From contig NZ_CP088252.1 of NCBI RefSeq assembly GCF_021117385.1, forward strand, positions 2,728,001-2,792,000: a stretch of DNA of 64,000 nt, given 5' to 3'. Position 1 is the stretch's first letter, and every line of letters starts with the position of its first letter. Under the pieces are notes generated by a model that saw only the letters and a list, made by a program, of their open reading frames with translations, did no database searches and had not been told where the DNA came from. Both the position numbers and the translations under genes were made by a program. Source of the stretch: Frateuria soli. Its GTDB lineage: Bacteria > Pseudomonadota > Gammaproteobacteria > Xanthomonadales > Rhodanobacteraceae. Positions 37,517 to 60,973 of the stretch are shown here, piece after piece.

Positions 37517-37598
37517 CTCATGTCGCCGCCTCCGTCGTCTGGCGGTACGTTCGGATCTCCACAGAAACGAGCGTCGCCAAACGAGAGGAGGCAGCGAG

Positions 37599-39219: not shown

Positions 39220-39249
39220 GATTAACGTCCTGATCGGAGATGAAAAATC

Positions 39250-39299
39250 AAAACAGGAGTCAGAGTCGACTTTAAAAGCACACTCTGACCCCTGTTTTT
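39250..39299. repeat. R1 repeat, full palindrome
   Basis: Left arm AAAACAGGAGTCAGAGT (39250-39266), core CGACTTTAAAAGCAC, right arm ACTCTGACCCCTGTTTT (39282-39298): a 17-nt inverted repeat with one mismatch. It is the best-formed copy of the R1 family. Confidence 0.88.
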
Positions 39300-39300
39300 C

Positions 39301-39345
39301 GGGGATCAGAATCGACTTTAAAAGTGCACTCTGACCCCTGTTTTT
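39301..39345. repeat. R1 repeat, half copy in tandem
   Basis: GGGGATCAGAATCGACTTTA then AAAGTGCACTCTGACCCCTG and TTTTT. It directly follows the full palindrome and abuts the IS3 transposase remnant, whose coding similarity starts right after it. Confidence 0.85.
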
Positions 39346-39665
39346 GCAAGCCGGCCAAGGGCGCCATCCACCACAGCGACCAAGGCTCGCAATACACCAG
39401 CAGGGCCTACCAGCAACAACTGCAGCAAGCGGGACTCACCGCGAGCATGAGCCGCAAAGGCATGCCCTATGACAACGCGGCCATGGAAAGCTTCTTCAGC
39501 TCCTTGAAGCAGGAGCTCACCCACCACCAGCCCTTTGCCACGCGCGAGGAGGCGCGCACCGAGATCTTCCGCTACATCGAGGGCTTCTATAACCGCCAAA
39601 GGCTGCACAGCAGCCTTGGCTATCGCTCACCCGAGGCCTTCGAGAGACTGGCTAAAGGTGCTTAA
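39346..39665 (+). pseudogene. IS3 family transposase (OrfB) C-terminal remnant
   Basis: About 105 residues of an rve-type integrase core: AIHHSDQGSQYTS (second catalytic Asp), GMPYDNAAMESFFSSLKQEL (catalytic Glu) and YIEGFYNRQRLHSSLGYRSPEAFE. The first two thirds of OrfB and all of OrfA are absent. Similarity begins exactly after the R1 repeat, so the repeat marks the deletion or insertion junction. Not functional. Confidence 0.88.
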
Positions 39666-39712
39666 TTAGACCGTCCGAGAAAGCGGGGGTGGCTCATGGT
39701 GACCCCTGTTTT

Positions 39713-39755
39713 TGATTAGCCACGTCCCCTTTAGTTTCCCGTCCCCTTTAATTTC
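39713..39755. repeat. R2 repeat copy (TTAGCCACGTCCCCTTTA)
   Basis: GATTAGCCACGTCCCCTTTAG followed by a second short unit, CCCGTCCCCTTTAATTTCC. It is the same family as 40826-40850 and the palindrome at 41660-41720. Confidence 0.75.
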
Positions 39756-39862
39756 CGGTTAGCTCTAGCTGCGATCCCTCACCACTACAACGCGAGACAG
39801 AGAGCTGCGCGCCTGTTGACTTGGCGGCGGAATGGTGAACCCTTGAGTTCACGCCGCCCCTT

Positions 39863-40687
39863 TTATTGGCTTCCACCCATCGCCTGCCATGCCTGATATA
39901 CCTCACGCAGCTGGGTCTGCTGCTCTCGGGGTAGTGTGAAGTCGTCGTAGTACTGGTCGCCATTGAATCGAACTACCACACGCTTGGCGCTCATCCATTG
40001 ATTGAGCATTTCATAGTTTTTGACCGGCATATCGATCCACTCCCAGACGTAACCGGACGAGTTATCGCGCTCGAAATCCATACGACCGAGTTCGTATACT
40101 TTGTCGTCAGCTTTCACAATGACTGATCGGACGAATAGCCAATCATCACCGTAGTACTGGAGCTTGAGCCTGAGCGGGTAGTTCGCGGCGCCGTTCCCAT
40201 CCGTTCCAAAATAGAGAGAAACATACTTCCCAAGAATTGGCGCATTGCGATGACTTACCCAAGTGACACCTTTAATCTCATCGAAATTCTTCTTCATATT
40301 TTTGGCCGCCCGCTCAACGAGGAGCCGCTCTTCCTTCGCCTTTTGCTCTTCTTTTCGCTTGCGCTCTAATTCTTTAGCAGCGATGCGTGAGTCAACCAGT
40401 GCAAGCAACGCAGTCGCCTCGGTGCTCTCGGGCGAGGCTGGGTGCCGCTTCAACAGATCGACAAGAAGCTTCTTCGCTTCGCCGTCGTTTTCCACCTGGT
40501 ATGCGGACTTGGCTTGCGCGAGCAGCCGGCTAGCGCCGAACTTGACCTCCTGCAGCTCTGCTTGAAGGGCCGAAACTTTTGCTTCGAGTTCTGCTGTGCG
40601 CTTGTTCGCCCTGTCATAGTCCTCTTGCGAGGGTCCGCAGCCAGCAAGAAGCGGAACGAATACGGCCAGCAAAAAAATTCCCTTCAT
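39863..40687 (-). CDS. Coiled-coil lipoprotein, unknown function
   Basis: 274 residues from MKGIFLLAVFVPLLAGCGPS (lipobox, Cys17). Next comes a coiled coil (YDRANKRTAELEAKVSALQAELQEV), a TPR-like helical stretch with an EATALLALVDSR region, a highly charged helix (ELERKRKEEQKAKEERLLVE), and a C-terminal beta domain (VSHRNAPILGKYVSLYFGTD...LKLQYYGDDWLFVRSVIVKADDKVYEL). The composition and lower GC differ from core genes. The stop TAA lies in an AATAAAAGGGG sequence resembling the R2 repeat. It is likely an outer-membrane lipoprotein carried by the island. Confidence 0.65.
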   Translation of the reverse strand: MKGIFLLAVFVPLLAGCGPSQEDYDRANKRTAELEAKVSALQAELQEVKFGASRLLAQAKSAYQVENDGEAKKLLVDLLKRHPASPESTEATALLALVDSRIAAKELERKRKEEQKAKEERLLVERAAKNMKKNFDEIKGVTWVSHRNAPILGKYVSLYFGTDGNGAANYPLRLKLQYYGDDWLFVRSVIVKADDKVYELGRMDFERDNSSGYVWEWIDMPVKNYEMLNQWMSAKRVVVRFNGDQYYDDFTLPREQQTQLREVYQAWQAMGGSQ

Positions 40688-40825
40688 TGAAACGCCCCCT
40701 AGAGAAGATTCATTCGCAATCTGAAGCAAGAGTGATTACGCTCTGGCGCCTACGTTGCTCCGTCCACCGGGTTAGCTCGCGGTGGGCGAGCCCGACCTGG
40801 CCATTGCCCCCGACTGAGGCCCGCA

Positions 40826-40850
40826 TTTAATTAGCCGCGTCCCCTTTATT
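40826..40850. repeat. R2 repeat copy overlapping a stop codon
   Basis: TTTAATTAGCCGCGTCCCCTTTATT. On the minus strand it encodes the last residues NKGDAAN and the TAA of the neighbouring gene. Confidence 0.85.
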
Positions 40851-41375
40851 CGCGGACATCATGCTGTCCAAGTACCAACCGTGGTGGAACTTGTTGAAGT
40901 CGTCCATCTGATGGCCGAGGACGCCAAGCAAACCGCCTGTCCAGGTTCCGAATGCATGGGTGCCATCGGGAAGCATCAGCTTTGCCGGGAAGGTCCGCAT
41001 GATATACATCGGGTTCTGCCCGTCCAGGGCGGTGCCCAACTCCAGAAAGTCGGACCAATTCAGTTCGTACCGCTCGTCGCCATGCCACTCGAACTTCACC
41101 ATCCGGAACTGCTTCGATTGCAAACTGTGGGACAGTTGAATCATGACGCGAAACACATCAGCCATGCTGTTGTTCGGCCCAATACTCCTCATATCGAGAA
41201 CGAGAACGCGCGGGTTTAGGTAGTAATCGAAGTGCGCATTGACGTCGACGCCGCTGTTGCGCGGGTCGTCGTGAATGACAGTGGCCAGTTTTGAGCCAAC
41301 AGACGCATAGTTGACGACAAATATCAAGAGACCGGCGACCACAAGGATCGCCAGCAGCGCTATGAGCTTTTTCAT
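40827..41375 (-). CDS. Membrane-anchored protein, unknown function
   Basis: 182 residues: MKKLIALLAILVVAGLLIFVVNYASVG (one N-terminal anchor), then a periplasmic or exported domain with DVNAHFDYYLNPRVLVLDMRSIGPNNSMADVFRVMIQL, FEWHGDERYELNWSDF and MYIMRTFPAKLMLPDGTHAFGTWTGGLLGVLGHQ. No family is recognised. The last seven residues and the stop are R2 repeat sequence, so the native end may be lost. It is on the same strand as the lipoprotein downstream. Confidence 0.65.
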   Translation of the reverse strand: MKKLIALLAILVVAGLLIFVVNYASVGSKLATVIHDDPRNSGVDVNAHFDYYLNPRVLVLDMRSIGPNNSMADVFRVMIQLSHSLQSKQFRMVKFEWHGDERYELNWSDFLELGTALDGQNPMYIMRTFPAKLMLPDGTHAFGTWTGGLLGVLGHQMDDFNKFHHGWYLDSMMSANKGDAAN

Positions 41376-41853
41376 AATCCCCCCCCGCCTTATATTGAAG
41401 CGGCATCAAAAACGACACCACCACACCACAAAAAAGGCCTAGCCCTATTAATGCTTGGCCGCGTTCTCGAGAATGCGAATGATAAGGTCGGATTGGCTCG
41501 CTATGTCCGCAACCAACCCTTGGGCGCAGGGTACTAGTTGCTTCGCTCCGCAGACGCCGACCTCGTAGTTAAATATAATGGGAGGCTTTTGCCATCACCC
41601 TTGTTTCACAAGATCACCAATGAATATATCGTCGATGACCCGTTTCCGTTCAAACAACAAAAGGGGACGTGGCAAATTAATTCCGGCGACCAACGCCAAT
41701 TAATTAGCCACGTCCCCTTTATTGCAGCGTCAGGCCGATCCCAGCCGTATAGACGGCCATGAAGGCAGCGGTCAAAAATGGCAACCAATCCTTGAGCATT
41801 GTCAGCATCCCAACCCAAGTAGCGATCTTGCGAGAACGCTACGCTCATGGTCG
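41376..41853. other. AT-richer intergenic with an R2 palindrome, no gene
   Basis: About 480 bases of clearly lower GC. The only structured part is the palindrome at 41660-41720. Short frames here are made of repeat sequence and lack starts or ribosome sites. Confidence 0.6.
41660..41720. repeat. R2 repeat, full palindrome (MITE-like)
   Basis: Left arm 41660-41682 (begins AAAGGGGACGTGGC) and right arm 41698-41720 (ends GCCACGTCCCCTTT) are 23 nt each and pair with one mismatch, around a 15-nt loop. The transcript would form a long hairpin. Confidence 0.9.
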
Positions 41854-42873
41854 TTATTTAGCCGCGCCGCTGACGGCTGACTTGGTTAGCAGCTCAAGTA
41901 CGGACCGGCTTCCAGGAGAAGAGTCGCCTCCTTCCTTTGAAAAACCTGTGTCTTGAGAACCGAAAATGCAAGCCGCAGCCTGCGCGAGAACAATATCCTG
42001 GGAGCCGGCCGACGAAGCGGAATCGACTAGCACGCGATAAGTTTGCAGCGCTGTTTGCCGGTGTCTATTTAGAATAGAGTTGTGCTTATGCGCCAGGAAA
42101 TTCTTGGCACAGAGCGCTAGTAGCGTACCGAGCGTCAGGAACAACAGCACTTTGCCTGTGAGCAGCTCTGCAGCATCCAAGGCATTCTGAGGTCGTAGCC
42201 AGTCGATTTTGAAAGCAACGGCAGAGAAAATTGCGAACGCAGCAATCACAGCGGCCAGCGCGCCCGTAGCCTTAGCCCAGTTGTTCGCCTCAGCCTCATG
42301 CTCATCTGCGCGCGTTTTGAAGAAGAGGGCCTGTTGCGATACCCCCTGTTCTGCGGCGACTTTCTGAATATGATCTAGAATTTGTTGCGCGGCCTTGTTC
42401 CTCTCTTCCAAAGAAGAAGTAAGCTCGCTTGCTCTGTCTTCTACATTTTGAAGGGTGGCTCGCGCGCGGGCTTCGATAACAGATGTATCGGTGGCGCTAG
42501 CTACCGCAAAGGCAACAAATTGCCAGAGAGAAGCAAATGCTAAATCATAGGCCTTGTTAGCCTGCTCTAATAAGGACGATCGCACACCGGCAGCATTGTT
42601 TTGCTCGTTTGAAAAATCGAGCATTTGCTTGAATAAATTATAGCCTGAATCGGCCTGGCTTTTGATAACCTGAAGCTGTGAGTCAATAAGGTCCGGCAAT
42701 ATGGAAACCGGTATCCTCTTATAGAGCCCTACCACTCTTTCTGCCGGCGCTACGGCTGCGTCAAAGTTCATTTGACGCCCTAGGTCGGCAGCGCGATCCA
42801 GGGACTTTGGGTCGAACGCCTGCATTCTCGACAGAGATTGCTCGGCTTCATCTAAAACGTTTTTTGATGGCAT
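41854..42873 (-). CDS. Two-TM coiled-coil membrane protein, unknown
   Basis: 339 residues. A long helical N-terminal part (about 1-200) includes SRMQAFDPKSLDRAADLGRQMNFDAA and EDRASELTSSLEERNKAAQQI. Two hydrophobic helices follow (ATGALAAVIAAFAIFSAVAF and LLFLTLGTLLALCA). The C-terminal cytoplasmic domain has KNFLAHKHNSILNRHRQTALQTYRVLVDSAS...IVLAQAAACIFGSQDTGF. That last block (N-F-x-A-x-K-H...N-x-H-R-Q-x-A-L) recurs in many unannotated bacterial membrane proteins. Codon use is less GC-rich than in nrdJ next door, suggesting transfer. Function unknown. Confidence 0.65.
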   Translation of the reverse strand: MPSKNVLDEAEQSLSRMQAFDPKSLDRAADLGRQMNFDAAVAPAERVVGLYKRIPVSILPDLIDSQLQVIKSQADSGYNLFKQMLDFSNEQNNAAGVRSSLLEQANKAYDLAFASLWQFVAFAVASATDTSVIEARARATLQNVEDRASELTSSLEERNKAAQQILDHIQKVAAEQGVSQQALFFKTRADEHEAEANNWAKATGALAAVIAAFAIFSAVAFKIDWLRPQNALDAAELLTGKVLLFLTLGTLLALCAKNFLAHKHNSILNRHRQTALQTYRVLVDSASSAGSQDIVLAQAAACIFGSQDTGFSKEGGDSSPGSRSVLELLTKSAVSGAAK

Positions 42874-42923
42874 GCCAGCCCCCTTTGGCTGCTCATAAAG
42901 TATTGGTGCCCGTCAGCCCCGAA

Positions 42924-43661
42924 CTACCCGCACTTCGAATACCCACAATTCAAACAAGTCTGGCACCCATCCATCAGCACCAGCGCCTGCGTATTGCACT
43001 TCGCACACAAGGTCGCCCCCGGCGGAAACCCGCTGGCATTGCTCTCGCTGCTGGACGCCGCCACCTCAGCCGCCTTCTTCCCCGCCGCAGCCGCCTCATA
43101 CGCCGCCCGCTTCTCGGCCACCAGCTTCTTCTGCGCCTCATCCATCTCCGGATCATGGATCAGCCCGATGTTCTTCATATGCTGCTCGATCACCGCCCCG
43201 ATCTCGGCCACGATGCTCGGCATGTAGACGCCACCGGCCTTGAAGTACCCACCGCGCGGGTCGAATACGGCCTTGAGCTCCTCCACGATGAACGTCACAT
43301 CCCCGCCCTTGCGGAACACGGCGGAGAGAATGCGGGTGAGCGCGACGATCCACTGGAAGTGGTCCATGTTCTTCGAGTTGATGAAGATCTCGAAGGGGCG
43401 GCGCTGTTCGTGCGGCGTGCCCTGGTTGAGCACGATGTCGTTGATGGTGACGTACAGCGCGTGCTCGAACAGCGGCGACTTGATCTTGAAGGTGGAGCCG
43501 ACCAGCGCCTCGGGGCGCTCGACGCTCTCGTGCATCTGGATGATTTCGGCCTGGCGCGGCTCGGCAGCCGTCTTCTCGGCCGGGGCGGCGGCCGGGGCGG
43601 CCTTGTCTTCGGGCTTGACGACCTGGTAGCCCTTGATCTTCTTTTCGATCTTGATCGTCAT
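42924..43661 (-). CDS. nrdJb: NrdJb: TSCPD / C-terminal redox subunit of B12-dependent ribonucleotide reductase
   Basis: 245 residues. An Ala/Pro-rich linker (about 18-36) is followed by the TSCPD-type domain (about 50-170: NDIVLNQGTPHEQRRPFEIFINSKN, LTRILSAVFRKGGD). The C-terminal zinc-ribbon/redox tail is CAKCNTQALVLMDGCQTCLNCGYSKCG. In single-chain NrdJ this tail re-reduces the active site. The separate form is known from Pseudomonas (NrdJa/NrdJb), where both chains are needed. It is downstream of nrdJ, separated by the histone-like gene. Confidence 0.87.
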   Translation of the reverse strand: MTIKIEKKIKGYQVVKPEDKAAPAAAPAEKTAAEPRQAEIIQMHESVERPEALVGSTFKIKSPLFEHALYVTINDIVLNQGTPHEQRRPFEIFINSKNMDHFQWIVALTRILSAVFRKGGDVTFIVEELKAVFDPRGGYFKAGGVYMPSIVAEIGAVIEQHMKNIGLIHDPEMDEAQKKLVAEKRAAYEAAAAGKKAAEVAASSSESNASGFPPGATLCAKCNTQALVLMDGCQTCLNCGYSKCG

Positions 43662-43916
43662 GGGTTCGGTTCTCTTGTCTGGCGGGGCGTCGACGGGCGA
43701 CGGCCGGTGGTTGGGCGAGGCTCTTGGGGCTCGCAGAAGGGGGAATCCATCTGGGGCGGCCTGGAAGGCCTGGCGGGCAAATGGATTTCCGCTTGTGCGC
43801 GATGGCGGCGGTGCCGGCTTCCGGTTCGCGGTCCCTGGCGGGAGGGCGGTGCGCGCGGCGTTCCGGTGTTGCGGAAGACTCCGGTCCGGGCGAACCCGGA
43901 CCGGAGACGGTACGGC

Positions 43917-44501
43917 TTACTTGCGGCGGGCAGCCTTCTTCGGCGCCGCCTTCTTGCTGGCAGTGGACCGCTTGACCGTCGACTTGGCGACGGCCTTCTT
44001 GCTGGCGGACTTCTTCCCTGCCGCCTTCCTGGGAGCGGCCTTCTTCATGGCCGTCTTCTTGCTGCTGACCTTCTTGGCCGGGGCCTTCTTGGCGACGGAC
44101 TTCTTCGCAGCGCCCTTCTTGGCAGCAGCCTTCTTCGGCGCGGCCTTCTTGGCGACAGCTTTCTTCGGAGCGGCCTTCTTGGCCGCGGCCTTCTTCGGAG
44201 CGGCCTTCTTGGCCGCGGCCTTCTTCGGCGCAGCCTTCTTGGCGGCGGCCTTCTTCGGCGCAGCCTTCTTGGCGGCAGCCTTCTTCGGCGCAGCCTTCTT
44301 GGCGGCGGCCTTCTTCGGAGCCGCCTTCTTGGCGGCAGCCTTCTTCGGGGCGGCCTTCTTTGCAGCAGCCTTCTTCGGAGCCGCCTTCCTGGCCGGCGCC
44401 GGGGTCTGCGGAGCAGGCGCGCCCATCGGCGCAGCGGCCGGTGCGTCACCCGTGGACGGCATGGAACTGTTCGGCGCCTGGTTTTCGGTATCGATGGACA
44501 T
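43917..44501 (-). CDS. Histone H1-like Lys/Ala-rich DNA-binding protein
   Basis: 194 residues. The N-terminus is short and acidic to neutral ([19 protein letters not shown]...APARKAA), then about 150 residues are almost entirely K, A and P in the repeat [18 protein letters not shown], like eukaryotic H1 tails, AlgP/AlgR3 and HctB. It should bind and condense DNA without sequence preference. The DNA is a tandem array of near-identical units of 15 and 30 bp (about 44100-44390), so length variation by slippage is expected. It sits between the two nrdJ parts. Confidence 0.9.
44090..44395. repeat. Intragenic 30-bp tandem repeats
   Basis: Units of the form GCCTTCTTCGGCGCA + GCCTTCTTGGCGGCG repeat about ten times with small changes within the H1-like gene. 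The repeats are in frame, so copy number changes alter protein length by 10 residues. Confidence 0.85.
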
Positions 44502-50422: not shown

Positions 50423-51121
50423 ATGCGCATCCACGCGCTGACGCTGGACCTGGACGACACCCTGTGGCCGGTGCTGCCGGCCCTGGAATGCGCCGACCGC
50501 GAACTGGATGCCTACCTGCGTACGCACCATCCGGACGTCGCCACGCGCTGGCCGATCCCGGCGATGCGCCAGTTGCGCGCGCAGGTCGCCGCCGAGCGGC
50601 TGGACCTGGCGCACGACTTCACCACCCAGCGCCACCTGACCATGCAGCGCGCCTTCGAGGCCTGCGGACTGGACGAGGTGCCGATCGAAGCGCTGTGGGA
50701 GGTCTACTACGCCGCGCGCAACCGCGTGGAACTGTTCACCGACGCGCTGCCGGCACTGGAGCGGATCACCGCGCGCTGGCCGGTGGCGAGCCTGACCAAC
50801 GGCAACGCGGACCTGGAGCGGATCGGCATCCACGCGCACTTCCATTGCCAGGTCTGCGCGCGGGACACCGGCGTGGGCAAGCCGGACGTGCGGATTTTCA
50901 AGGTCGCGGCCGACCGCCTGGGCGTGGCGCCGGAGCACATCCTGCACGTGGGCGACGACGCCGACCTGGACATGCGCGGCGCGCGCGAGGCCGGGCTGCG
51001 CACCGCGTGGATCAACCGTGAGCGCCTTCCCTGGCCGGACGGGCTCGGCGCGCCGCCGGACCTGGACCTGCCGGACATGGGCGCGCTGGCCGACTGGCTG
51101 GAGCGCAGCCAGCCCGCGTAG
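50423..51121 (+). CDS. HAD family hydrolase
   Basis: 232 residues from MRIHALTLDLDDTLWPV. Motif I is LDLDDT (Asp9, Asp11), motif II VASLTNGN, motif III GKPDVRIFK and motif IV HVGDDADLDMRGA, with the helical cap between. It resembles 2-haloacid dehalogenase/YigB-type phosphatases (FMN or pyridoxal phosphate). It begins 12 nt after the LysM gene stop, so they may be co-transcribed. Stop at 51121, followed immediately by a REP pair. Confidence 0.87.
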   Translation: MRIHALTLDLDDTLWPVLPALECADRELDAYLRTHHPDVATRWPIPAMRQLRAQVAAERLDLAHDFTTQRHLTMQRAFEACGLDEVPIEALWEVYYAARNRVELFTDALPALERITARWPVASLTNGNADLERIGIHAHFHCQVCARDTGVGKPDVRIFKVAADRLGVAPEHILHVGDDADLDMRGAREAGLRTAWINRERLPWPDGLGAPPDLDLPDMGALADWLERSQPA

Positions 51122-51191
51122 GAGCCCGCTCGCGGGCGATGCCTTTGTCGATCCGTGGCGAAGGGCATCGCCCGCGAGCGGGCTCCTACAG
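51117..51191. repeat. REP pair (inverted)
   Basis: GTAGGAGCCCGCTCGCGGGC (51118-51137) and its inverse GCCCGCGAGCGGGCTCCTAC (51170-51189) around a short spacer. It is the best-conserved member of the family seen at 184-311. It starts at the HAD stop codon and separates it from the aminopeptidase. Confidence 0.88.
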
Positions 51192-51267
51192 GGATGCGGC
51201 CGGTTTGGCATGGCCGGTCGATCGGCGCATCATGATCGACCCGCTGCAAACACGAGGCACGAACGCC

Positions 51268-52662
51268 ATGCCGGAGAGCTCCCCGTCCGCCCTGACCGAA
51301 CGCAAGACCGGCAAGGCGCAGGGCATCGCCATCGAGACCGTCGACAGTGCGCACTACAAGGGTGCGCTCAAGCGGCTGGACGCCACCCAGCGACGCTGGC
51401 TGGAGCAGACCGGCTTCGAACCCAAGCCCGGACGCTTCGCCCTGTTGCCGGACGCCAGCGGCAAGCTCGCGCGCGTGCTGGTGGCGGTCGATCCGGCCGA
51501 GCCGCTGGCCGCGCTGGCCGGGTTGCCGTTTGCGTTGCCGGCGGGCACCTACCATCTGGCCGACGAAGGCGCGCTGACCGATACGGCGCAGGCCGCGCTG
51601 GGCTGGGCGTTGGGCGCCTACCGTTTCGAGCGCTATCGCAAGGGCACGCGCGCGCCGGCCACGCTGGCTGTGCCGGCCGCGGAGCGGGCCGCGCTGGCGC
51701 CGCTCGTCGAAGCGACCGCATGCGTGCGCGACCTGGTCAATACGCCGACCGAGGACATGGGCCCGGAACAGCTGGCCGACGCGGTGAAGCGACTGGCCAG
51801 GACGCACAAGGCCAAGCTGCGCGAGTGGGTCGGCGACGCCCTGCTCGAGGCCAACTTCCCCACCATCCACGCGGTCGGCCGCGCCAGCCACCGTGCGCCG
51901 CGGCTGGTCGAGATGAGCTGGGGCAAGGCCACGGACCCGAAGCTGGTGGTGATCGGCAAGGGCGTGTGCTTCGACACCGGCGGCCTGGACATCAAGCCGT
52001 CCGACGGCATGCGCAACATGAAGAAGGACATGGGTGGCGCCGCGCACGCGATCGCGCTGGCCGGGCTGGTGATGCAGGCGAAGCTGCCGGTGCGCCTCAC
52101 GCTGCTGGTGCCGGCGGTGGAGAACGCCATCGCCGGCAACGCGATGCGTCCGGGCGAGGTGATCACTACCCGCGCCGGCCACACGGTGGAAGTGGACAAC
52201 ACCGACGCCGAGGGCCGGCTGATCCTGTGCGACGCGATTGCCTATGGCGCCGAGCAGCAGCCGGACCTGATGCTGGACTTCGCCACCCTGACCGGGGCGG
52301 CCCGCGTGGCGCTGGGCCCGGACCTGCCGGTGCTGTTCGCCAACCAGGATGCGGCCGCCGAGCAGTTGCTTGACGCCGGCCGCGCCGTGGCCGACCCGTT
52401 GTGGCGACTGCCGCTGTGGCGGCCGTACCGCAGGATGCTCGACTCGTCGGTGGCGGACTTCGCCAACGCGGGGCCCTCGCGGCACGCCGGCGCGATCACC
52501 GCGGCGCTTTACCTGGAGCGCTTCGTGCCTGACGGCCTGCCGTGGCTGCACCTGGACACCTACGCCTGGAACGACGCCGACCGTCCCGGCCGCCCGCGCG
52601 GCGGCGAGGCGATGGGCCTGCGGGCGATGTTCGCGTTCCTGCAACAGCGCTACGCGCGCTGA
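51268..52662 (+). CDS. M17 leucyl aminopeptidase family protein
   Basis: 464 residues from MPESSPSALT, with GAGG upstream. The N-terminal domain is poorly conserved. The catalytic domain carries VVIGKGVCFDTGGLDIKP, MKKDMGGAAHAIALAG and the signature NTDAEGRLILCDA; the zinc ligands and catalytic Lys/Arg of the family fall in these motifs. A cytoplasmic dinuclear zinc exopeptidase of the PepA/PepB type. Slightly shorter N-terminus than PepA, so the 'leucyl aminopeptidase family' label is safer than pepA. Confidence 0.9.
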   Translation: MPESSPSALTERKTGKAQGIAIETVDSAHYKGALKRLDATQRRWLEQTGFEPKPGRFALLPDASGKLARVLVAVDPAEPLAALAGLPFALPAGTYHLADEGALTDTAQAALGWALGAYRFERYRKGTRAPATLAVPAAERAALAPLVEATACVRDLVNTPTEDMGPEQLADAVKRLARTHKAKLREWVGDALLEANFPTIHAVGRASHRAPRLVEMSWGKATDPKLVVIGKGVCFDTGGLDIKPSDGMRNMKKDMGGAAHAIALAGLVMQAKLPVRLTLLVPAVENAIAGNAMRPGEVITTRAGHTVEVDNTDAEGRLILCDAIAYGAEQQPDLMLDFATLTGAARVALGPDLPVLFANQDAAAEQLLDAGRAVADPLWRLPLWRPYRRMLDSSVADFANAGPSRHAGAITAALYLERFVPDGLPWLHLDTYAWNDADRPGRPRGGEAMGLRAMFAFLQQRYAR

Positions 52663-52773: not shown

Positions 52774-54093
52774 ATGAACGCACCGAGGGACGATGCCGCC
52801 GTCGCGACCTGCCGCGAGCAGGCATTGACCGCATTGCAGCGCGGTGACATCGCGCACGCCGAGCAGGCGTTCTCGCGCCTGCTGGAACGGCGGCCCGACG
52901 ACGTCGAGGCACTCCAGTTCCTGGCCTCCTGCCGGCTCGGGCGCGGCGATGCGGCCCGCGCGATCGAGTGGCTGCGCGTCGCGCACCATGCGCAGCCGGG
53001 GGACGCGGGGATCCTGCACCAGCTCGGCGCGGCGCAGGTCACGGCCGGCGACCTGGCCGGCGCCGAGGAAAGCCTGCGCGCGGGCCTGGCGCTGGCGCCG
53101 GGCATGTTCGTGGCGCGCCTGCGCCTGGGCGTGGTGTACGAGCAACAGGGGCGCCGGCACGAGGCCGTCACTGCCTATCTCGGCGCGATCAATGCCGCGC
53201 AGGCGCAGGGTCGCTGGCTCAGCGACGACACCACCGCGCCGGGCGTGCGCGAGGCGGTCAAGCACGCCACGCACTACGTCGCGGCGGGACGGCGCGAGCT
53301 GTTCGACGCGGTGATCGAGCCGTTGCGCCAGCGCTACGGGCGCGCGGAGCTCGCCCGGGTCGACCAGTGCCTGGCCATCTACCTGCACGAGCAGCCCGCG
53401 CCGCTGCCCGATCCGCGGCAGCGGCCGCTGTTCCTGTACTTCCCCGGCGTGCCCAGCCGGACCTACTACCCGCGCGAGCGCTTCCCGGAGCATGCAAGGC
53501 TGGAGGCGGCCTTCGATGCGATCCGCGGGGAACTGCGCGCCGTGCTGTCGCAGGCGGACGACCCGTTCGTGCCCTTCCTGGGCGCGCCCTCGGCCGCGGC
53601 GGTCGCGGCACGACTGCTCGATGCGACCGGCCCGCAGGAGGCGGCCTGGGATGCGTTCTTCTTCTACCGTCATGGCGCCCGCCACGACGCCAACTGCGCG
53701 CGCTGCCCGCGCACCAGCGCAGTGCTGGACGGCATGCCACTGGTGCGGGTGCGCGACCACGCACCGGAGACGCTCTTCTCGGTGCTGCGCCCGGGCACGC
53801 ACATCCTCCCCCACCGCGGCGTCACCAACACGCGCCTGGTCACGCACCTGCCGCTGATCGTGCCGCCGGATTGCGCGTTGCGCGTGGGCGGCGAAACCCA
53901 CGTGTGGGAAGAAGGCCGCTGCGTCACCTTTGACGACACCTTCGAACACGAGGCCTGGAACCGCAGCGGGCAGACCCGCGTGGTGCTGATCGCGGACAGC
54001 TGGAATCCCGACCTGAGCGAAGTGGAGCGCATGGCGGTGGCGGACCTGGTCGCGGCCATCGGCGACTTCAACCGGTCCGTGCCCGAGCCCTGA
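52774..54093 (+). CDS. TPR protein with aspartyl/asparaginyl beta-hydroxylase domain
   Basis: 439 residues. Three or four TPR-like helical pairs come first (about 10-150: GDIAHAEQAFSRLLERRPDDVEALQFLAS, AGDLAGAEESLRAGLALAPGMFVARLRLG). The C-terminal AspH-type oxygenase domain (about 285-430) has LFSVLRPGTHILPHRGVTNTRLVTHLPL (first His ligand and 2-oxoglutarate region) and CVTFDDTFEHEAWNRS (second His). It should hydroxylate Asp/Asn residues or a related substrate. It lies on the same strand just upstream of a TonB receptor and a TPR-sulfotransferase. Confidence 0.83.
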   Translation: MNAPRDDAAVATCREQALTALQRGDIAHAEQAFSRLLERRPDDVEALQFLASCRLGRGDAARAIEWLRVAHHAQPGDAGILHQLGAAQVTAGDLAGAEESLRAGLALAPGMFVARLRLGVVYEQQGRRHEAVTAYLGAINAAQAQGRWLSDDTTAPGVREAVKHATHYVAAGRRELFDAVIEPLRQRYGRAELARVDQCLAIYLHEQPAPLPDPRQRPLFLYFPGVPSRTYYPRERFPEHARLEAAFDAIRGELRAVLSQADDPFVPFLGAPSAAAVAARLLDATGPQEAAWDAFFFYRHGARHDANCARCPRTSAVLDGMPLVRVRDHAPETLFSVLRPGTHILPHRGVTNTRLVTHLPLIVPPDCALRVGGETHVWEEGRCVTFDDTFEHEAWNRSGQTRVVLIADSWNPDLSEVERMAVADLVAAIGDFNRSVPEP

Positions 54094-54108
54094 TCCGGAC
54101 GCGAAGCG

Positions 54109-54126
54109 TGGCCGTCCGGACGGCCA
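54109..54126 (+). terminator. Possible hairpin after the hydroxylase-like gene
   Basis: TGGCCGTCCGGACGGCCA is an 18-nt perfect palindrome 16 nt past the stop. It is followed by AAAA, not T residues, so its role as terminator on the plus strand is weak. Confidence 0.4.
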
Positions 54127-54289
54127 AAATACTGTCCATGGCAGCCGACCGACCGCGGCCTGCCTGCGGGAATGCCCCCACCCATGACTGAGGGCAGGGG
54201 CACTTGCTTGTTAAACAGTTGTTGCTGTCATACTCGGCGCGCTCACCAGAGCGGGGGAAGCAGGGATTCACTTTCACCGGGGAGTGCAC

Positions 54290-57178
54290 ATGAAATACGA
54301 CTTGAACCACTTGTCTTTGGCAGTGCGTCTTGCGTTGAGTGCAGGTGTTTTTTCGGTGGCGGGAGTGGCGCAGGCGCAGGTGACGACACCGGACAATCCG
54401 GCCTCGTCCGAGCAAACGGCGCAGGACCAGGCTCCCCCCTCCAAGAAGGAGGCCAAGACCCTGGAGTCGATCCAGGTGACCGGCTCGCTGATCCGGCGCG
54501 TGGACGCCGAGACGGCCAGCCCGGTGATCACGCTGGACCGCGCGACCATCAGCAACTCGGGCAAGCCCGTGCTGGGCGACGTGCTGCAGCAGATGCCGAG
54601 CATCTCGGGCAACGCGACCAACCCGCAGAACAACAGCAACGGCGGCGGCGTGGCCAGTCCGTTGCTGGAAGCCGGTGACGGCGCCTCGCGCGTCTCGCTG
54701 CGCGGCCTTGGCAACAATCGCACGCTGGTGCTGGTCAACGGCCAGCGCATGGCCAATCCGGACATCAACCTGATCCCGCCGGAGATGATCGAGCGGGTCG
54801 AAGTGCTGGCCGAGGGCGCCTCCACGGTGTACGGCTCCGATGCCATCGGCGGCGTGGTCAACTTCATCCTGCGCAAGGACTTCAAGGGCGTCCAGTTCAG
54901 CCTGAACGACGGCATCTCCAGCCACGGCGACGCCAAGCGCCACGGCTTCAACCTGACCGGCGGCATGACCGGCGAGCGCTACAGCATTGCCGCGGGCATC
55001 GACTACAACAAGTACGACGAGACGCTCGCGTCCCGCCGCAAGTTCTCCAGGCAGCAGTTGTACCTGTCGGGCGGTTCGGTGATTGCGGCCGGTTCCAGTT
55101 CGATCCCGACCGGCCGCATCCAGGTTCCCGCCGCGATCGCCGGCCAGTACGGTTGCGCGGTGGATCCGGAGACGCAGACCGCCCAGGTGACGCTCGCCTC
55201 GGGCGACGGCTCGAGCCTGGGCGACTACCGTTGCCGGCTCTCCTCGGACACCTACAACTACGCCGCGCTCAACTACATCCAGACCGCGCAGAAACGCACC
55301 AACGGCTTCGTGCTGGCGGACTTCAACATCACCGACAACGTAAGCGCATACGTCAACGCGTTCTACAACCACACCGTGTCCAGCGGCCAGGACGCACCTT
55401 CACCGGTCGGTACCGGCGACGGCCTGATCATTTCCGCGGACAACCCGATCAACCCGTTCGGCATCACCTTCAGCCAAGGGGCAATCGCCGGCGATCCGAA
55501 CAGCGGCTACAACTTCCAGACCCGCCTGACCGGCGCCGGCACGCGCGTGCACAGCTACACGACCGACACCGGCCAGATCAACGCCGGCTTGCGCGGCGCG
55601 TTCAGCCAGGACAGCAGCTGGATCTGGGATGCGTCGATCAACTACAGCCACACCAAACGCGACCAGCGCGACACCAACGAAGTGGACATCCCCTCGTTGC
55701 AGGCCGCGGTCGACGCCGGCGCGAACATCTTCGACCAGGCCAACGCCGGCGACGTGCTGAGCTCCGGCGTGAAGACGCCGATCTACGTCTTCACCCAGTC
55801 GACCAAGCAGGCGCAGGTCGATGCCAGCGGCGAGCTGTGGGACCTGCCCGCCGGACCGGTGCAGCTGTCGGTCGGCGCGCTGTACCGCAAGCAGTTCATG
55901 AACTACACCGTGAGCGACTTCGCGGTGCTCAACCCGGTGACCACCACCTGCCAGATTCTGCAGGAGGCCTGCGGCTCGCCCGGGCGGGGCAGCTACAACG
56001 TCAAGGAGCTGTTCGCCGAGTCGCTGATCCCGCTGGTGTCGGACGTGGCGTGGGCCAAGTCGCTGTACCTGGACCTGGGTATCCGCAGCTCCAACTACAG
56101 CACCACCGGCACCACCACCAACGGCAAGGTCGCGATCGAGTGGCGACCGACCGATACCCTGCTGCTGCGCGGCACGGTCTCGCAGGTGTTCCGCGCGCCC
56201 AACCTCAATGAGCTGTACGACGGTCGCACGCTGGTGCAGCCGGTGCTGAACGATCCCTGCGTCGGCCGCACCGCCGAGGACCTGGCGGCGCACCAGGCCG
56301 CCTGCCAGTTCGTCCCGGTCAATTGGGGCGGCAACGACCCGGCGCAGGTCAACACGTTCTACTCCGGTGCGGCGACGGTGGGTGCCACGCTGAAGCCGGA
56401 AAAGGGCAAGTCGATCGATTTCGGCCTGGTCTACGATCCGGACTGGGCGCCGGGCCTGTCGACCAGCCTCGACTTCTGGCACATCTACCTGTCCGACACG
56501 CTGACGGCGATCCAGGCCGACACCGTCGTCAGCATCTGCTACAACAACAACTCGAGTCCGTACTGCTCGTTCATCACGCGCCAGGACAACACCACCCGCC
56601 AGCCGGGCCAGGTGTTCCTGATCAACACGCCGGTGGTCAACCTGGGCACGCTCAGCACCTCCGGCATCGACTACACGCTGCGCTACAAGATCCCGCACTT
56701 CGACATCGGCGGCATGGACCCGGGCAACTTCCGGGCGGGCCTCAACACCAGCTACACGTCGTCCTACAACGTCAACGCGACGCCAGGCGAGCCGGGCGCG
56801 GAGTCGGTCAACTACGCCGGCACCTACACGCCCCAGTTCGGCAACATCTCGCGCTGGCGCGGCACGGTCACGCTCAACTGGGACAAGGGCAACTGGAACG
56901 CGCAGTGGCAGTCCCGCTACATCAACCACCTCACCGCGCTCAATGCCGACTACGCCATCACCGGCGTCGACATCCCGGTCGCCTCGGTGCTCTACCACTC
57001 GATCCAGCTGGGCTACAACGTGCCGTCGATCCACACCAAGTTCGACATCGGCGTGGACAACATCACCGACAAGCAGCCGCCGCGGCTCTACCAGAACGGC
57101 TCCAACTACAACGTAGACACCGCCACCTACGATGTACTCGGACGCTATTACTGGGTCCGTGCGACGGTGAAGTTCTGA
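54290..57178 (+). CDS. TonB-dependent outer-membrane receptor
   Basis: 962 residues from MKYDLNHLSLAVRLALS (signal peptide ending VAQAQ), preceded by GGGGAG. The plug domain (about 55-215) has ESIQVTGSLIRRVDAETASPVITLDR (TonB-box-like region), VSLRGLGNNRTLVLVNGQRM and VYGSDAIGGVVNFI. A 22-strand beta barrel follows, with many Asn/Gly/Tyr loops, ending YYWVRATVKF (terminal Phe for BAM). It imports a large or scarce ligand of unknown nature; length suggests oligosaccharide, peptide or siderophore. A GC-rich terminator follows. Confidence 0.93.
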   Translation: MKYDLNHLSLAVRLALSAGVFSVAGVAQAQVTTPDNPASSEQTAQDQAPPSKKEAKTLESIQVTGSLIRRVDAETASPVITLDRATISNSGKPVLGDVLQQMPSISGNATNPQNNSNGGGVASPLLEAGDGASRVSLRGLGNNRTLVLVNGQRMANPDINLIPPEMIERVEVLAEGASTVYGSDAIGGVVNFILRKDFKGVQFSLNDGISSHGDAKRHGFNLTGGMTGERYSIAAGIDYNKYDETLASRRKFSRQQLYLSGGSVIAAGSSSIPTGRIQVPAAIAGQYGCAVDPETQTAQVTLASGDGSSLGDYRCRLSSDTYNYAALNYIQTAQKRTNGFVLADFNITDNVSAYVNAFYNHTVSSGQDAPSPVGTGDGLIISADNPINPFGITFSQGAIAGDPNSGYNFQTRLTGAGTRVHSYTTDTGQINAGLRGAFSQDSSWIWDASINYSHTKRDQRDTNEVDIPSLQAAVDAGANIFDQANAGDVLSSGVKTPIYVFTQSTKQAQVDASGELWDLPAGPVQLSVGALYRKQFMNYTVSDFAVLNPVTTTCQILQEACGSPGRGSYNVKELFAESLIPLVSDVAWAKSLYLDLGIRSSNYSTTGTTTNGKVAIEWRPTDTLLLRGTVSQVFRAPNLNELYDGRTLVQPVLNDPCVGRTAEDLAAHQAACQFVPVNWGGNDPAQVNTFYSGAATVGATLKPEKGKSIDFGLVYDPDWAPGLSTSLDFWHIYLSDTLTAIQADTVVSICYNNNSSPYCSFITRQDNTTRQPGQVFLINTPVVNLGTLSTSGIDYTLRYKIPHFDIGGMDPGNFRAGLNTSYTSSYNVNATPGEPGAESVNYAGTYTPQFGNISRWRGTVTLNWDKGNWNAQWQSRYINHLTALNADYAITGVDIPVASVLYHSIQLGYNVPSIHTKFDIGVDNITDKQPPRLYQNGSNYNVDTATYDVLGRYYWVRATVKF

Positions 57179-57213
57179 CGTTCCCGGTCGGCGCATCCCG
57201 CTGACCGCCACCG

Positions 57214-57246
57214 GAGGGGCCGCGGAACGATCCGCGGCCCCTCTTG
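57214..57246 (+). terminator. Intrinsic terminator after the receptor
   Basis: GAGGGGCCGCGGA (57214-57226) and TCCGCGGCCCCTC (57231-57243) form a perfect 13-bp stem with a 4-nt loop, followed by TTG. It probably limits read-through into the sulfotransferase gene, giving unequal expression. Confidence 0.75.
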
Positions 57247-57281
57247 CATAATGAGGCCCGGCCGACCGCGACCGAGGACGC

Positions 57282-59132
57282 ATGCCCGACCCCGCCACCG
57301 ACCTCGCCCACGCCATGGCCGGCGCCTACAACGCCGGCGACATGGAGCGCGTCATCGCGCTTGCCAGCCAGGCGGGCGACACGGCGGACGAAGGCATCCA
57401 GCTCCTGCTCGGCCTGGCGCAGCAGGCGACCGCACGCTACGGGATGGCGGCGAGGACGTTCCGCCAACTGGCGCAGCGACGGCCGGATGTTTCCGCCTAC
57501 TGGAACAACCTGGGCGTGGCCTGCCGGATGAGCGGCGACCTGGCCGCCGCCGAGCAGGCGCTGTCGACCGCGATGTCGCTGGCGCCGGGCGACGCCGACG
57601 TGCTCTACAACCTCGGCCTGCTCCACATCCAGCAGCGGCGCTGGCCGGTGGCGCGGGAGATCCTGCTCGAAGCGGTGGACCGGGCACCGGACGTCATCGA
57701 GGCACGGCTGCAGGCCGCGTTCGCCTGTTACGTCTGCGGCGACAGCACCGGCCAGGAGGCCATGCTGGCCGGCGCCGGCGACTGGCCGGGGCAGCCGGGC
57801 GAACAGGCCCTGGTCCTGTCCACCATGCTGATGGCGCAGGGCGACCCGGACGCGGCGCTGCGCGCGCTTGCGCGTGCGCAGTTGCCCGGCGGACCCGCGG
57901 GTGAGTCCCTGCGGTTGCGGATCACCGCTCAGCGGGTCCTGCTGCACGAGCGCAACAACCAGCTCGATCAGGCCCGGCGGGAACGGGAGCAGTTGCCGCT
58001 GGATGCGCTCGAGGCTTTGCCACCGGAGGCCGGCCAGGCGCGCGCGGATGCATGGCGCGCGCATGCCGCGATGGCCATGCGTGCCGGTGCCCATGCCGAG
58101 GCGGCGGCGCTGTACCGACGCGCGCTTGCGCTGGCCGACGACGACCAGACCCGCGCCAGCGTCGCGTTCGCGCTGGCTTCGGCGTGCGACCGCCAGGGGC
58201 AGTATGGAGAGGCGTGGCAGGCGCTTGAGGCCGCGCACGCGGCGCAACTGGAGATTGCAGGCGGCGTGCTGCCCGAGCTGCTGGCACCCGACAGCCAGCC
58301 GCTGCAGATGGCCGAAGTCGACCGCGCCGCCTTTGCCCGCTGGGAGCCGCTGCCGTCACCGGACAGCCGGCAGAGCCCGGTTTTCGTGGTCGGCTTCCCG
58401 CGCTCGGGCACCACGTTGCTCGAACAGATGCTCGATGCCCATCCGGACTTCCGGTCGATGGACGAGCGTGCCTTCATCCACGCGCTGACCGAACGCATGG
58501 AACAGGTCGGGCAGCGCTACCCCGCCGACCTGGCGACCCTCACCGGCACGGAAACCGACCAGCTGCGCGCCGCCTACTTCCGCATGGTCGGACGCGTACT
58601 GCCGGCCCTCGGGCGGCACCGGCTGGTCGACAAGAATCCGCTCAACATGCTTTGCCTGCCGATGATCATGCGGCTGTTCCCGCAGGCACGGATCATCCTG
58701 TGCCTGCGCCACCCGTGCGATGTGCTGCTCAGTTGCAGCATGCAGCCGTTCCGCTCGCCGGCATTCATGGTGCTGTGTTCGTCGCTGCAGCGCCTGGCGC
58801 GCGGTTACGTGCAGGCCTTCGAGCACTGGTACCGGCAGGTGGAGGCCTTCCGGCCGCATGTGCTGGAGTGGCGCTACGAATCGGTCGTCGGCGACCTCGA
58901 GGGTCACCTCGCGCGCCTGGGAGCGTTTCTCGACATCGCCGATCCGACGCCGATGACGCGCTTTGCCGAGCATGCGCGGAACAAGCGCTTCATCAGCACG
59001 CCCAGCTATGCGCAGGTCACCCGGGGCATCCATCCCGGGGCCGTCAACCGCTGGCATCACTACCGCGAACACTTCGAGCCCGTACTGCCGCTGCTGCGGC
59101 CGCTGGTCGATCGTCTCGGCTACACGCTCTGA
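57282..59132 (+). CDS. TPR repeat-containing sulfotransferase
   Basis: 616 residues. TPR-like repeats fill about 1-310 (WNNLGVACRMSGDLAAAEQALSTAMSLAPGDADVLYNLGLLHIQQRRW). The sulfotransferase domain (about 365-600) has the PAPS 5'-phosphosulfate loop VVGFPRSGTTLLEQML and the 3'-phosphate motif RIILCLRHPCDVLLSC near 470. No signal peptide, so cytoplasmic. It would transfer sulfate from PAPS to a substrate presented by the TPR domain, perhaps tyrosine in a protein or an oligosaccharide. It lies downstream of the TonB receptor and AspH-like genes. Confidence 0.9.
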   Translation: MPDPATDLAHAMAGAYNAGDMERVIALASQAGDTADEGIQLLLGLAQQATARYGMAARTFRQLAQRRPDVSAYWNNLGVACRMSGDLAAAEQALSTAMSLAPGDADVLYNLGLLHIQQRRWPVAREILLEAVDRAPDVIEARLQAAFACYVCGDSTGQEAMLAGAGDWPGQPGEQALVLSTMLMAQGDPDAALRALARAQLPGGPAGESLRLRITAQRVLLHERNNQLDQARREREQLPLDALEALPPEAGQARADAWRAHAAMAMRAGAHAEAAALYRRALALADDDQTRASVAFALASACDRQGQYGEAWQALEAAHAAQLEIAGGVLPELLAPDSQPLQMAEVDRAAFARWEPLPSPDSRQSPVFVVGFPRSGTTLLEQMLDAHPDFRSMDERAFIHALTERMEQVGQRYPADLATLTGTETDQLRAAYFRMVGRVLPALGRHRLVDKNPLNMLCLPMIMRLFPQARIILCLRHPCDVLLSCSMQPFRSPAFMVLCSSLQRLARGYVQAFEHWYRQVEAFRPHVLEWRYESVVGDLEGHLARLGAFLDIADPTPMTRFAEHARNKRFISTPSYAQVTRGIHPGAVNRWHHYREHFEPVLPLLRPLVDRLGYTL

Positions 59133-59227: not shown

Positions 59228-60973
59228 ATGCATCCCCGCCTGTCCCTGCTGGCGCTTGGCATCACGCTCGGCCTCGCCGCCGGCGCACACGCGTCCACCA
59301 CCGAACAGCCCAAGCTCACCGCGCAAACCAGGAACTCCGGCGGCGCAATGCCGGCCGAGCAGGCGCGCCTGCACTTCGACCACGCGGAACTGCACTTCGC
59401 CATCGATCCGGCCAGGCGCCATCTCGATGGCGAGGCGACGCTGCGCTTCACCGCCCGCGAGCCGACCGATGTGCTGCTGCTGGACCTGGACAGGAACCTG
59501 CCGATCCGCAGCGTGGCCGTCGACGGCAAGCCGCTGGCCAGGGACGCCTGGAGCAACCCGGACGGTCGCTTGCGCATCCGCCTGGCGCAGCCGCTGGGCA
59601 AGGACGACAGCGTCAGCACCACCATCGTCTACGGCGGCAAGCCGCACGTCGCCAAGCGCGCGCCGTGGGACGGCGGCTTCGTATGGAGCCATACCAAGGA
59701 CGGCCAACCGTGGGTCGCCAGTGCCGTCGAGGGCGAGGGCTGCGACCTGTTCTGGCCGTGCATCGACCAGCCCACGGGCGAGCCGGACCTGGTCGACACC
59801 TACGTGACCGTGCCCAAGGCGCTCGCCGCGCCGGGCAACGGGGTGCTGGTCGAGATCAGGGACAACGGCGCCACGCGCACCTGGCACTGGCGCATCAAGC
59901 AGCCGGACACCTACGCGATCACCCTCAACGTGGGGCCGTTCGAGGAACTCAGGGGCGACTACAAGAGCCGCTACGGCAACACCATCCCGATGGAGCTCTG
60001 GTATCTGCGCGGGCACGAGGCGGACGCCAGGGCGTTGTTCGCCGAGTTCCCGCGCATGCTCGACTTCTTCGAACAGCAGATCGGCCCCTACCCGTTCGGC
60101 GACGAGAAGATGGGCGTGGTCGAGACGCCGCACCTGGGGATGGAACACCAGACCCTCAACGCCTACGGCAACGGCTACCCCAAGAGCGCGTACGGTTTCG
60201 ACTGGCTGCTGCAGCACGAGTTCGCGCACGAGTGGTTCGGCAACCAGGTGACCAACCGCAACTGGGACGACATGTGGCTGCACGAGGGCTTCGGCACCTA
60301 CATGCAGCCGCTGTACGGGCAGTATCTGCATGGCGACATGCCGTATTTCTCGATGCTCCACGAGGAACGGATGAAGCTCTCCAACACCTCGCCGATCGTT
60401 TCCGGCCAGCCCAGGACCGAGGAAGAGGTGTACGACGGGAAGACCGGGCCGGGCCTGGACATCTACTACAAGGGTTCGCTGGTGCTGCACACGTTGCGCG
60501 AGCTGATCGGCGACGACGCCTTCTTCGAGAGCGTGCGGCGACTGGTCTACGGACGGCCGGACCCGGAACCGGGCAACTTCAGGCCGCGCTATGCGACCAC
60601 GAAGGAATACATCGGCATCGTCGACCAGGTGACCGGCAAGGATCTGAAGTGGTTCTTCGACGTGTACCTGTATGACGCGAAGCTGCCGAGGCTGGAGACG
60701 AACCGGCGCGGGGACATGTTGCAGTTCCGCTGGGTGACCGCTCATGGCGAGCCATTCCCGATGCCGCTGGACGTGCAGGTGGGCGACACCGTGCACACGC
60801 TGGCGATGGCCGGCGGCACCGGCGAACTCAAGGTCCCGGAGGGAAGCCTGATGATCGTCGACCCCCGCTCGAAGGTGCTGCGCGAGATGCCGCACGTGGA
60901 GGCGTTCCAGGCGTGGGAGAAGGCGCAGAAGGCGGACAAGAAGGCGAAGGAAAAGGCCGCGCAGAAAAACTGA
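59228..60973 (+). CDS. M1 family metallopeptidase (aminopeptidase N-like)
   Basis: 581 residues from MHPRLSLLALGITLGLAAGAHA (signal peptide), with AAGGAG upstream. Zinc site: His330, Glu331 and His334 (HEFAHEWFG) with Glu353 (HEGFGTY). The substrate-recognition motif G-A-M-E-N is replaced by GMEHQTLNAYG. It has an N-terminal beta domain and a catalytic domain, and is shorter than full aminopeptidase N because it lacks the C-terminal helical domain. The Lys-rich tail (AQKADKKAKEKAAQKN) is unusual. It is likely a secreted or periplasmic peptidase. Confidence 0.9.
   Translation: MHPRLSLLALGITLGLAAGAHASTTEQPKLTAQTRNSGGAMPAEQARLHFDHAELHFAIDPARRHLDGEATLRFTAREPTDVLLLDLDRNLPIRSVAVDGKPLARDAWSNPDGRLRIRLAQPLGKDDSVSTTIVYGGKPHVAKRAPWDGGFVWSHTKDGQPWVASAVEGEGCDLFWPCIDQPTGEPDLVDTYVTVPKALAAPGNGVLVEIRDNGATRTWHWRIKQPDTYAITLNVGPFEELRGDYKSRYGNTIPMELWYLRGHEADARALFAEFPRMLDFFEQQIGPYPFGDEKMGVVETPHLGMEHQTLNAYGNGYPKSAYGFDWLLQHEFAHEWFGNQVTNRNWDDMWLHEGFGTYMQPLYGQYLHGDMPYFSMLHEERMKLSNTSPIVSGQPRTEEEVYDGKTGPGLDIYYKGSLVLHTLRELIGDDAFFESVRRLVYGRPDPEPGNFRPRYATTKEYIGIVDQVTGKDLKWFFDVYLYDAKLPRLETNRRGDMLQFRWVTAHGEPFPMPLDVQVGDTVHTLAMAGGTGELKVPEGSLMIVDPRSKVLREMPHVEAFQAWEKAQKADKKAKEKAAQKN

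Follow-up and report, generated by a model that had tools for sequence, protein, structure and literature searches.

During the analysis of a 64,000-nt stretch of the Frateuria soli genome (contig NZ_CP088252.1, positions 2,728,001 to 2,792,000; this whole stretch is called the window), a block of three genes was recognized. They encode an AspH-type oxygenase with tetratricopeptide repeats (TPR-AspH, hereafter AspH), a TonB-dependent receptor (TBDR), and a TPR-sulfotransferase (TPRST). The block AspH-TBDR-TPRST spans 6,359 bp, all on the + strand, with gaps of 111, 196, and 103 bp. The first-pass annotation had described a TPR-AspH, a 962-residue TBDR, and a TPR-sulfotransferase on one strand, and the open reading frames (ORFs) and Pfam domains bear this out. 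The features are as follows.

52774..54093, + strand: TPR-AspH, 439 aa; TPR repeats and Asp_Arg_Hydrox PF05118 (Pfam)
54290..57178, + strand: TBDR, 962 aa from the ATG; PF07715 and PF00593 (Pfam)
54290..54379, + strand: signal peptide of the TBDR, with the conserved LSxAVRxALSxG core at residues 8-19
57214..57243, no strand: 13-bp perfect hairpin, then TTGCATAATG, between the TBDR stop and the TPRST start
57282..59132, + strand: TPRST, 616 aa; TPR and Sulfotransfer_3 PF13469 (Pfam)

The F. soli genome is a single contig of 3.49 Mb with 21 plug-domain matches. Searches with the block proteins revealed a single full-length TPR-AspH match and a single TPRST at E <= 1e-40. Among named relatives, Frateuria flava is the closest by AspH (90%).

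Proteins encoded by the block

TPRST contains a Sulfotransfer_3 domain (PF13469, e-value 1e-32) at residues 366-553, with about 330 residues of TPR ahead of it. Its predicted fold is nearest to the entries of tyrosylprotein sulfotransferases (TPST), and the TPR part resembles O-GlcNAc transferase (OGT). The predicted model has the TPST fold with the positions that we take to bind 3'-phosphoadenosine 5'-phosphosulfate (PAPS) and to act in catalysis. No signal peptide or hydrophobic N-terminus was seen by hydropathy, and the Golgi type II membrane anchor of the eukaryotic TPST family is replaced by TPR at that end. In comparison with human TPST1 and TPST2, TPRST is bacterial, apparently cytosolic, and fused to TPR, and its activity is predicted. 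OGT likewise has a TPR superhelix ahead of a protein-acting transferase, but TPRST has a sulfotransferase where OGT has a glycosyltransferase. Based on the model, TPRST is a putative enzyme for sulfate transfer to protein, with Tyr as the most likely acceptor and Ser/Thr as possible ones.

In AspH, the TPR domain lies ahead of the oxygenase domain (PF05118, residues 245-412, e-value 4.5e-47). The best solved relatives of this domain are ASPH entries (1.1e-29), presumably human. H347 and R402 are kept in 29 of the 30 aligned sequences, and H392 in all 30; the two His are presumably metal-binding and the Arg 2-oxoglutarate-binding. PF05118 with both metal His and the 2-oxoglutarate Arg is the arrangement of ASPH-type enzymes (29 of 30 sequences), and human ASPH has the same combination of TPR and PF05118 oxygenase with these positions aligned. 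It differs from the window AspH, in which no signal peptide, hydrophobic N-terminus, or membrane anchor was seen by hydropathy. By analogy, AspH is a putative hydroxylase of Asp/Asn in a protein. Since the TPRST fold is nearest to TPST, its TPR is like OGT, and ASPH is the best solved relative of AspH, the substrate is likely to be a protein. A second TPR-AspH copy at L148:12627-14108 has Arg at the aligned metal His and Gly at the 2-oxoglutarate Arg; it is likely to be a paralogue without catalytic activity, next to an intact copy.

The enzymes might instead act on envelope lipids or glycans, through LpxO/OlsC-like hydroxylation and sulfation of lipid or polysaccharide, with the receptor as a co-needed neighbor. 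AspH does match the curated NCBIfam models of OlsC (104.6 bits) and LpxO (74.5 bits), and TPRST matches the NoeE model (41.4 bits), but the scores are far under the respective curated cut-offs of 450, 500, and 500 bits. The best-matching relatives of known structure modify proteins, although such structures may be scarce for lipid-acting relatives. Both enzymes are TPR-fused, and TPRST co-diverges with the receptor as described below. Lipid or glycan substrates are quite improbable on this evidence.

The TBDR contains Plug PF07715 (8.1e-20) and TonB_dep_Rec_b-barrel PF00593 (3.1e-34) with a barrel of the 22-strand type. An export signal was recognized by eye and hydropathy as a hydrophobic segment within residues 8-30 with an AQAQ end. 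These features suggest a TonB-dependent transporter with putative ligand uptake. Its fold is canonical for such transporters and equally near to Cir, BtuB, and siderophore receptors, and is therefore uninformative on the ligand.

Linkage and gene order in other genomes

Homology search revealed 225 AspH relatives, and the best 80 were kept as named loci, with neighbors counted from six-frame ORFs. Within 10 kb of AspH in the window's AspH clade (52 loci), a TBDR was found at 47 loci, a sulfotransferase at 50, and both at 46. For the 43 loci with both flanks of at least 8 kb, the counts are 41, 43, and 41. Of the 28 loci in the second AspH clade (about 50% identity), five have a TBDR within 10 kb (Lysobacter L108, L110, L112, and L113, and also L115), three have a sulfotransferase, and one has both. 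Because the second clade is mostly without a receptor nearby, receptor linkage is mainly a property of one AspH clade.

Systematic screening was also performed on 151 genomes drawn evenly from the order. AspH was found in 37 genomes (41 places, E <= 1e-30), TPRST in 32 (43 places, E <= 1e-40), and a TBDR of this family in 40 (67 places, E <= 1e-100), the last being an undercount, as five candidates were scored per genome at that threshold. AspH and TPRST occur together in 19 genomes, AspH alone in 18, TPRST alone in 13, and neither in 101 (Fisher 1.5e-6, ignoring phylogeny). At least 23 of the 43 TPRST places have a listed TBDR within 10 kb, versus 0.36 expected by random placement, again ignoring phylogeny, and 21 of these 23 pairs have a gap of 87-365 bp. 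In the fetched stretches, the TBDR adjoins TPRST at four further places (G013, G015, G106, and G110), while eight of the 43 are outside the fetched set. AspH is less tightly placed, being within 10 kb of TPRST at 16 of 41 places and of a TBDR at 12 of 41.

At the phylum level, a TPRST match at 1e-35 was found in 16 of 249 genomes. Fifteen distant stretches were fetched, and this TBDR family was found in L224 only; four low-GC stretches gave no gene calls. Genes were called by GC frame plot, which missed or misread some AspH frames (e.g., L038, L041, and L189), and the low-GC L212, L214, L219, and L220 were left out of the counts. L224 belongs to genome G294, whose kinship is "same phylum", which places it in another class. 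It groups genes for a TBDR, a TPR-sulfotransferase, a TPR-AspH, a TPR-PF13759 oxygenase, and a penicillin amidase. In the family of G294 (f45), the TBDR family lies beside TPRST in all four fetched loci, always accompanied by one or more further modifying enzymes: a PF13640 oxygenase in L241, AspH and a further sulfotransferase in L242, and a further sulfotransferase in L243. Genes for retropepsin-like aspartyl proteases lie directly 3' of TPRST in two f45 loci (L242:10258-11289 and L243:11279-12289).

About a dozen layouts were counted by hand, among which the window type is AspH-TBDR-TPRST. In Dyella and Rhodanobacter, TBDR-TPRST is followed by two reversed TPR-sulfotransferases and then AspH, and Dyella sp. 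EPa41 has TBDR-TPRST-2OG (2-oxoglutarate) oxygenase-sulfotransferase-AspH. AspH is opposed to the remaining genes in L066 and L070 and faces TPRST-TBDR in L082-L084; TPRST faces oxygenase-TBDR in L161 and L162. In Lysobacter L110 and L112, one AspH lies between tandem receptors (TBDR-AspH-TBDR). Examples of partner domains from Pfam are additional sulfotransferases (TPR-fused or not), PF13640 and PF13759 oxygenases, and methyltransferases. TBDRs are common phage and bacteriocin receptors, and the putative marks could mask the receptor; modified loops would then affect how phages or bacteriocins bind, and not the uptake of nutrients. Enzyme number and kind per receptor differ between relatives, and the closest folds to the receptor include Cir with colicin or microcin domains. 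Both fit masking, but no direct evidence was seen (no search for defence-system genes was made), and this role is hardly probable.

AspH and Sulfotransfer_3 domains are fused in one protein in L068 and L071. A search with the fusion protein gave matches in 26 of the 151 genomes, including G053 and G015, in each of which the fusion is one ORF. Fifteen of these loci were fetched: both halves are in one ORF in 11 and in adjacent genes in three (L290, L291, and L293), and L294 has the sulfotransferase half only. The fusions indicate that AspH and the sulfotransferase belong together. In L291, a receptor of this family is followed by a terminator-like hairpin (by eye), AspH, and a sulfotransferase, the enzyme genes overlapping by 4 bp. 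L291 is a TBDR-AspH-sulfotransferase trio rebuilt from non-orthologous enzymes. ThiC adjoins the fusion in L280 and L283. Large exported-looking beta-helix or Ig-like proteins, two with an IPTL-CTERM sorting motif, are encoded in the fusion loci L284-L288; they are possible clients of the fusion enzyme and fit enzymes serving an exported protein, in five loci only.

The first-pass annotation had asked for conservation of gene order beyond close synteny. The association holds in changed orders, in other families, and in another class, and the random neighbors named there as the opposite outcome did not appear for TBDR and TPRST. That unrelated genes are held together by chance or common descent is very improbable. 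The Frateuria and Rhodanobacter blocks do adjoin the same M17 and M1 peptidase genes, and part of the conservation is plain synteny; changed orders and orientations, the spread to other families and another class, the non-orthologous trio, and the 23 places versus 0.36 expected already contradict this explanation.

Co-divergence and the substrate of the enzymes

Co-divergence was analyzed with 49 loci having all three genes, using frame-plot gene calls. The distance-matrix correlations are 0.969 for TBDR-TPRST, 0.602 for TBDR-AspH, and 0.598 for TPRST-AspH, with 0 of 2000 permutations reaching each of them; the values are inflated by shared descent, as no species marker was used, and the contrast between pairs carries the result. 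The partial correlation of TBDR-TPRST given AspH is 0.951, and that of TBDR-AspH given TPRST just 0.117. Because of this contrast, TBDR and TPRST behave as one unit, and AspH as a looser part. In six genomes with both the window type and a second island (G039, G046, G085, G105, G115, and G130), each receptor type keeps to the matching TPRST type.

A tree of 88 receptors was built with a quick method and labeled from frame-plot gene calls as sulfotransferase-paired (69), AspH-only (7), or unpaired (12; these enzymes not called within 9 kb). On this tree, the paired state has to change 7 times, versus a mean of 17.6 for shuffled labels, with 0 of 500 shuffles as low. The closest group to the window type consists of eight receptors lacking the enzymes (support 91; the two groups taken together are starred 99). 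The nearest enzyme-less receptors are L174, L175, L180, L181, L185, and L186, and a GH127 beta-L-arabinofuranosidase was confirmed beside L174, L180, L181, and L186. They are candidate importers of plant hydroxyproline-arabinoside material, and the superfamily thus also serves loci resembling plant-polymer or glycopeptide use. At L184:5748-9123, two adjacent gamma-glutamyltranspeptidase genes adjoin a receptor of the same superfamily.

Because the grouping recurs in distant bacteria, AspH and the sulfotransferase probably modify the receptor or what the receptor binds. A receptor-modification cassette with the receptor as the client is tentatively taken as the best explanation. Its core would be the TBDR and a dedicated sulfotransferase of the TPST type, cytosolic and guided by its TPR, with a TPR-guided Asp/Asn beta-hydroxylase as a common accessory. 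The TPR arms would grip the unfolded exported polypeptide in the cytosol, the site of PAPS, 2-oxoglutarate, and Fe(II), and sulfate (most likely on Tyr, possibly on Ser/Thr) and the Asp/Asn beta-hydroxyl would be put on ahead of Sec export. The most economical client would be the receptor precursor encoded next door, and its modified outer loops would carry charged or metal-binding groups that set the ligand choice. The receptor is favored as the client because it is the nearest gene, it co-diverges with TPRST, the TPR enzymes are apparently cytosolic, one AspH lies between tandem receptors, and no precursor peptide was found. That the TBDR is Tyr-sulfated and Asp/Asn-hydroxylated in the cytosol by TPR enzymes mirroring TPST and ASPH in the secretory pathway of animals is possible but somewhat doubtful. 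More boldly, the AspH-derived hydroxyl may itself accept the sulfate, which would explain the single-protein fusions of AspH and sulfotransferase.

Several observations weigh against the receptor as the client. The low partial correlation of TBDR-AspH is one of them. With thresholds of 75% for paired and 35% for unpaired rows (53 paired and 10 unpaired), no Tyr column is kept in paired and lost in unpaired receptors, and residue 240 is the only Asp/Asn column that passes (0.91 versus 0.20); the other passing columns are residue 206 for Asn alone and residues 549 and 832 for Pro. The conserved loop cysteines and a DYRC-like motif are common to paired and unpaired receptors. TPRST lacks this receptor at eight of the 43 places in the order (L149-L151, L157, L159, L160, L163, and L165) and in six of 10 genomes of the order of G294 (L244-L249, two other families). 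The receptor family is absent from 14 of the 15 fetched fusion or split loci, with L291 as the only exception, and the fusion family was rejected as proof of a receptor link. A terminator-like hairpin separates the TBDR from TPRST.

The whole 103-nt gap of the window has a folding energy of -56.1 kcal/mol (z -3.76), and a hairpin is present in all 55 same-strand receptor-TPRST gaps examined, with z from a shuffle control computed for the window gap alone. The weakest values (-13.8 and -20.6) are from L073 and L077, whose gaps are cut by misplaced starts. In loci with other receptor types, the hairpin is mostly followed by a T run, while the window type has TTGCATAATG instead. The 15-mer CCCTCTTGCATAATG occurs once in the window genome. 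The hairpin suggests that TPRST is transcribed either by low-level read-through or from a separate promoter. A small number of enzyme molecules for many receptors would be in keeping with an enzyme and its client.

Two candidate sites on the receptor were analyzed, and neither was established. Among 63 receptors, the mean pair identity is 0.573 for the signal peptide, 0.137 for the linker, and 0.437 for the barrel. The LSxAVRxALSxG pattern is present in one of the 21 plug proteins of the window genome. It is not exclusive to paired receptors: four of the 12 unpaired receptors match the core too (L182, L186, L177_16495, and L179), and the f45 receptors do not, leaving the signal peptide as an enzyme recognition site at the level of a lead; in this motif comparison, the rows of L063_3, L077, L146, L147, and L189 have misplaced or cut starts. 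The second candidate is the loop C750-C759, 10 residues with both Cys invariant. ASPH needs an EGF ring, and this loop is similar in size. It was rejected as an ASPH-like target, with no conserved Asp/Asn at the third position and the cysteines in unpaired receptors too.

Alternatively, the enzymes may tailor a secreted peptide, such as a ribosomal metallophore or signal, whose loaded form re-enters via the receptor as methanobactin does via MbnT. Beta-hydroxy-Asp is an iron ligand in siderophores, and the GH127 and gamma-glutamyltranspeptidase genes beside enzyme-less receptors of the superfamily hint at peptide or glycopeptide ligands. According to the available text of one paper, some methanobactin operons pair the sulfotransferase MbnS with the TonB-dependent transporter MbnT (PMC3621798); MbnS belongs to PF00685, and that text names no AspH for these operons. 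The MbnA precursor, MbnB/MbnC, and an exporter were not seen in the window block, and its gaps are small. A search of 31 island spans with 136 small ORFs, not extended to the rest of the genome, gave no conserved small ORF family, and the sole match is an antisense ORF common to the window and its near relative L036. A secreted peptide is rather unlikely on balance. RaxST is from Xanthomonas, presumably in the same order as the window organism. The available text on RaxX-RaxST describes bacterial tyrosine sulfation (PMC4216712, PMC6637879); the RaxST client differs in being a small secreted peptide, from a cluster with its own secretion genes.

The first-pass annotation had further proposed a substrate shared by the enzymes and the receptor. 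The conserved grouping, the AspH-sulfotransferase fusions, and the L291 trio speak for this idea, while the three genes are unequally linked and AspH adds little.

Genomic setting and significance

The block is flanked by two peptidase genes, which are probably outside the system.

51139..52662, + strand: leucyl aminopeptidase (M17), flanking; landing site
59228..60973, + strand: M1-family peptidase, flanking; landing site

The peptidases were rejected as likely members of the system, the M17-M1 pair being often without the block between them. Of 20 genomes from the family in which M1 was matched, 12 have the two genes at most 1.8 kb apart, without room for the block (hand reading); the spacing is 5.2-6.6 kb in five and 3.0 kb in one, and they are non-adjacent in two, the contents of the G516 and G523 gaps being unread. 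Because pairs without room for the block are common in the family, the block looks like an insertion in or beside an older peptidase pair. An inverted repeat with 29-nt arms (97%) at 51118-51189 of the window overlaps the start of the listed M17 ORF. The true M17 start is probably downstream of the listed one, because most relatives align only from about residue 40-60.

Elsewhere in the window, at 36000-44000, GC drops to 53-62% within a 69% GC region. This stretch encodes an FkbM-type methyltransferase (36603-37496), an IS110-type transposase (37503-38615), and two ORFs without a Pfam match, and it adjoins a TSCPD protein and ribonucleotide reductase. It is a probable acquired island.

Flavin-dependent halogenases lie beside TonB receptors in Xanthomonas, which the literature search did not confirm. 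Among the matches listed by this full-text search, whose scope excludes subscription journals and preprints, no paper on the present grouping was found. To our knowledge, no outer-membrane receptor has been described as covalently sulfated or hydroxylated. The receptor-plus-modifying-enzyme cassette is real and conserved, it is apparently unreported, and its proposed mechanism is plausible. The cassette is a function lead for TPR-sulfotransferases without an assigned role. If the proposed modification is true, it would be a new layer in nutrient uptake and in phage or bacteriocin recognition, and the cassettes would provide simple bacterial models of TPST- and ASPH-type chemistry.

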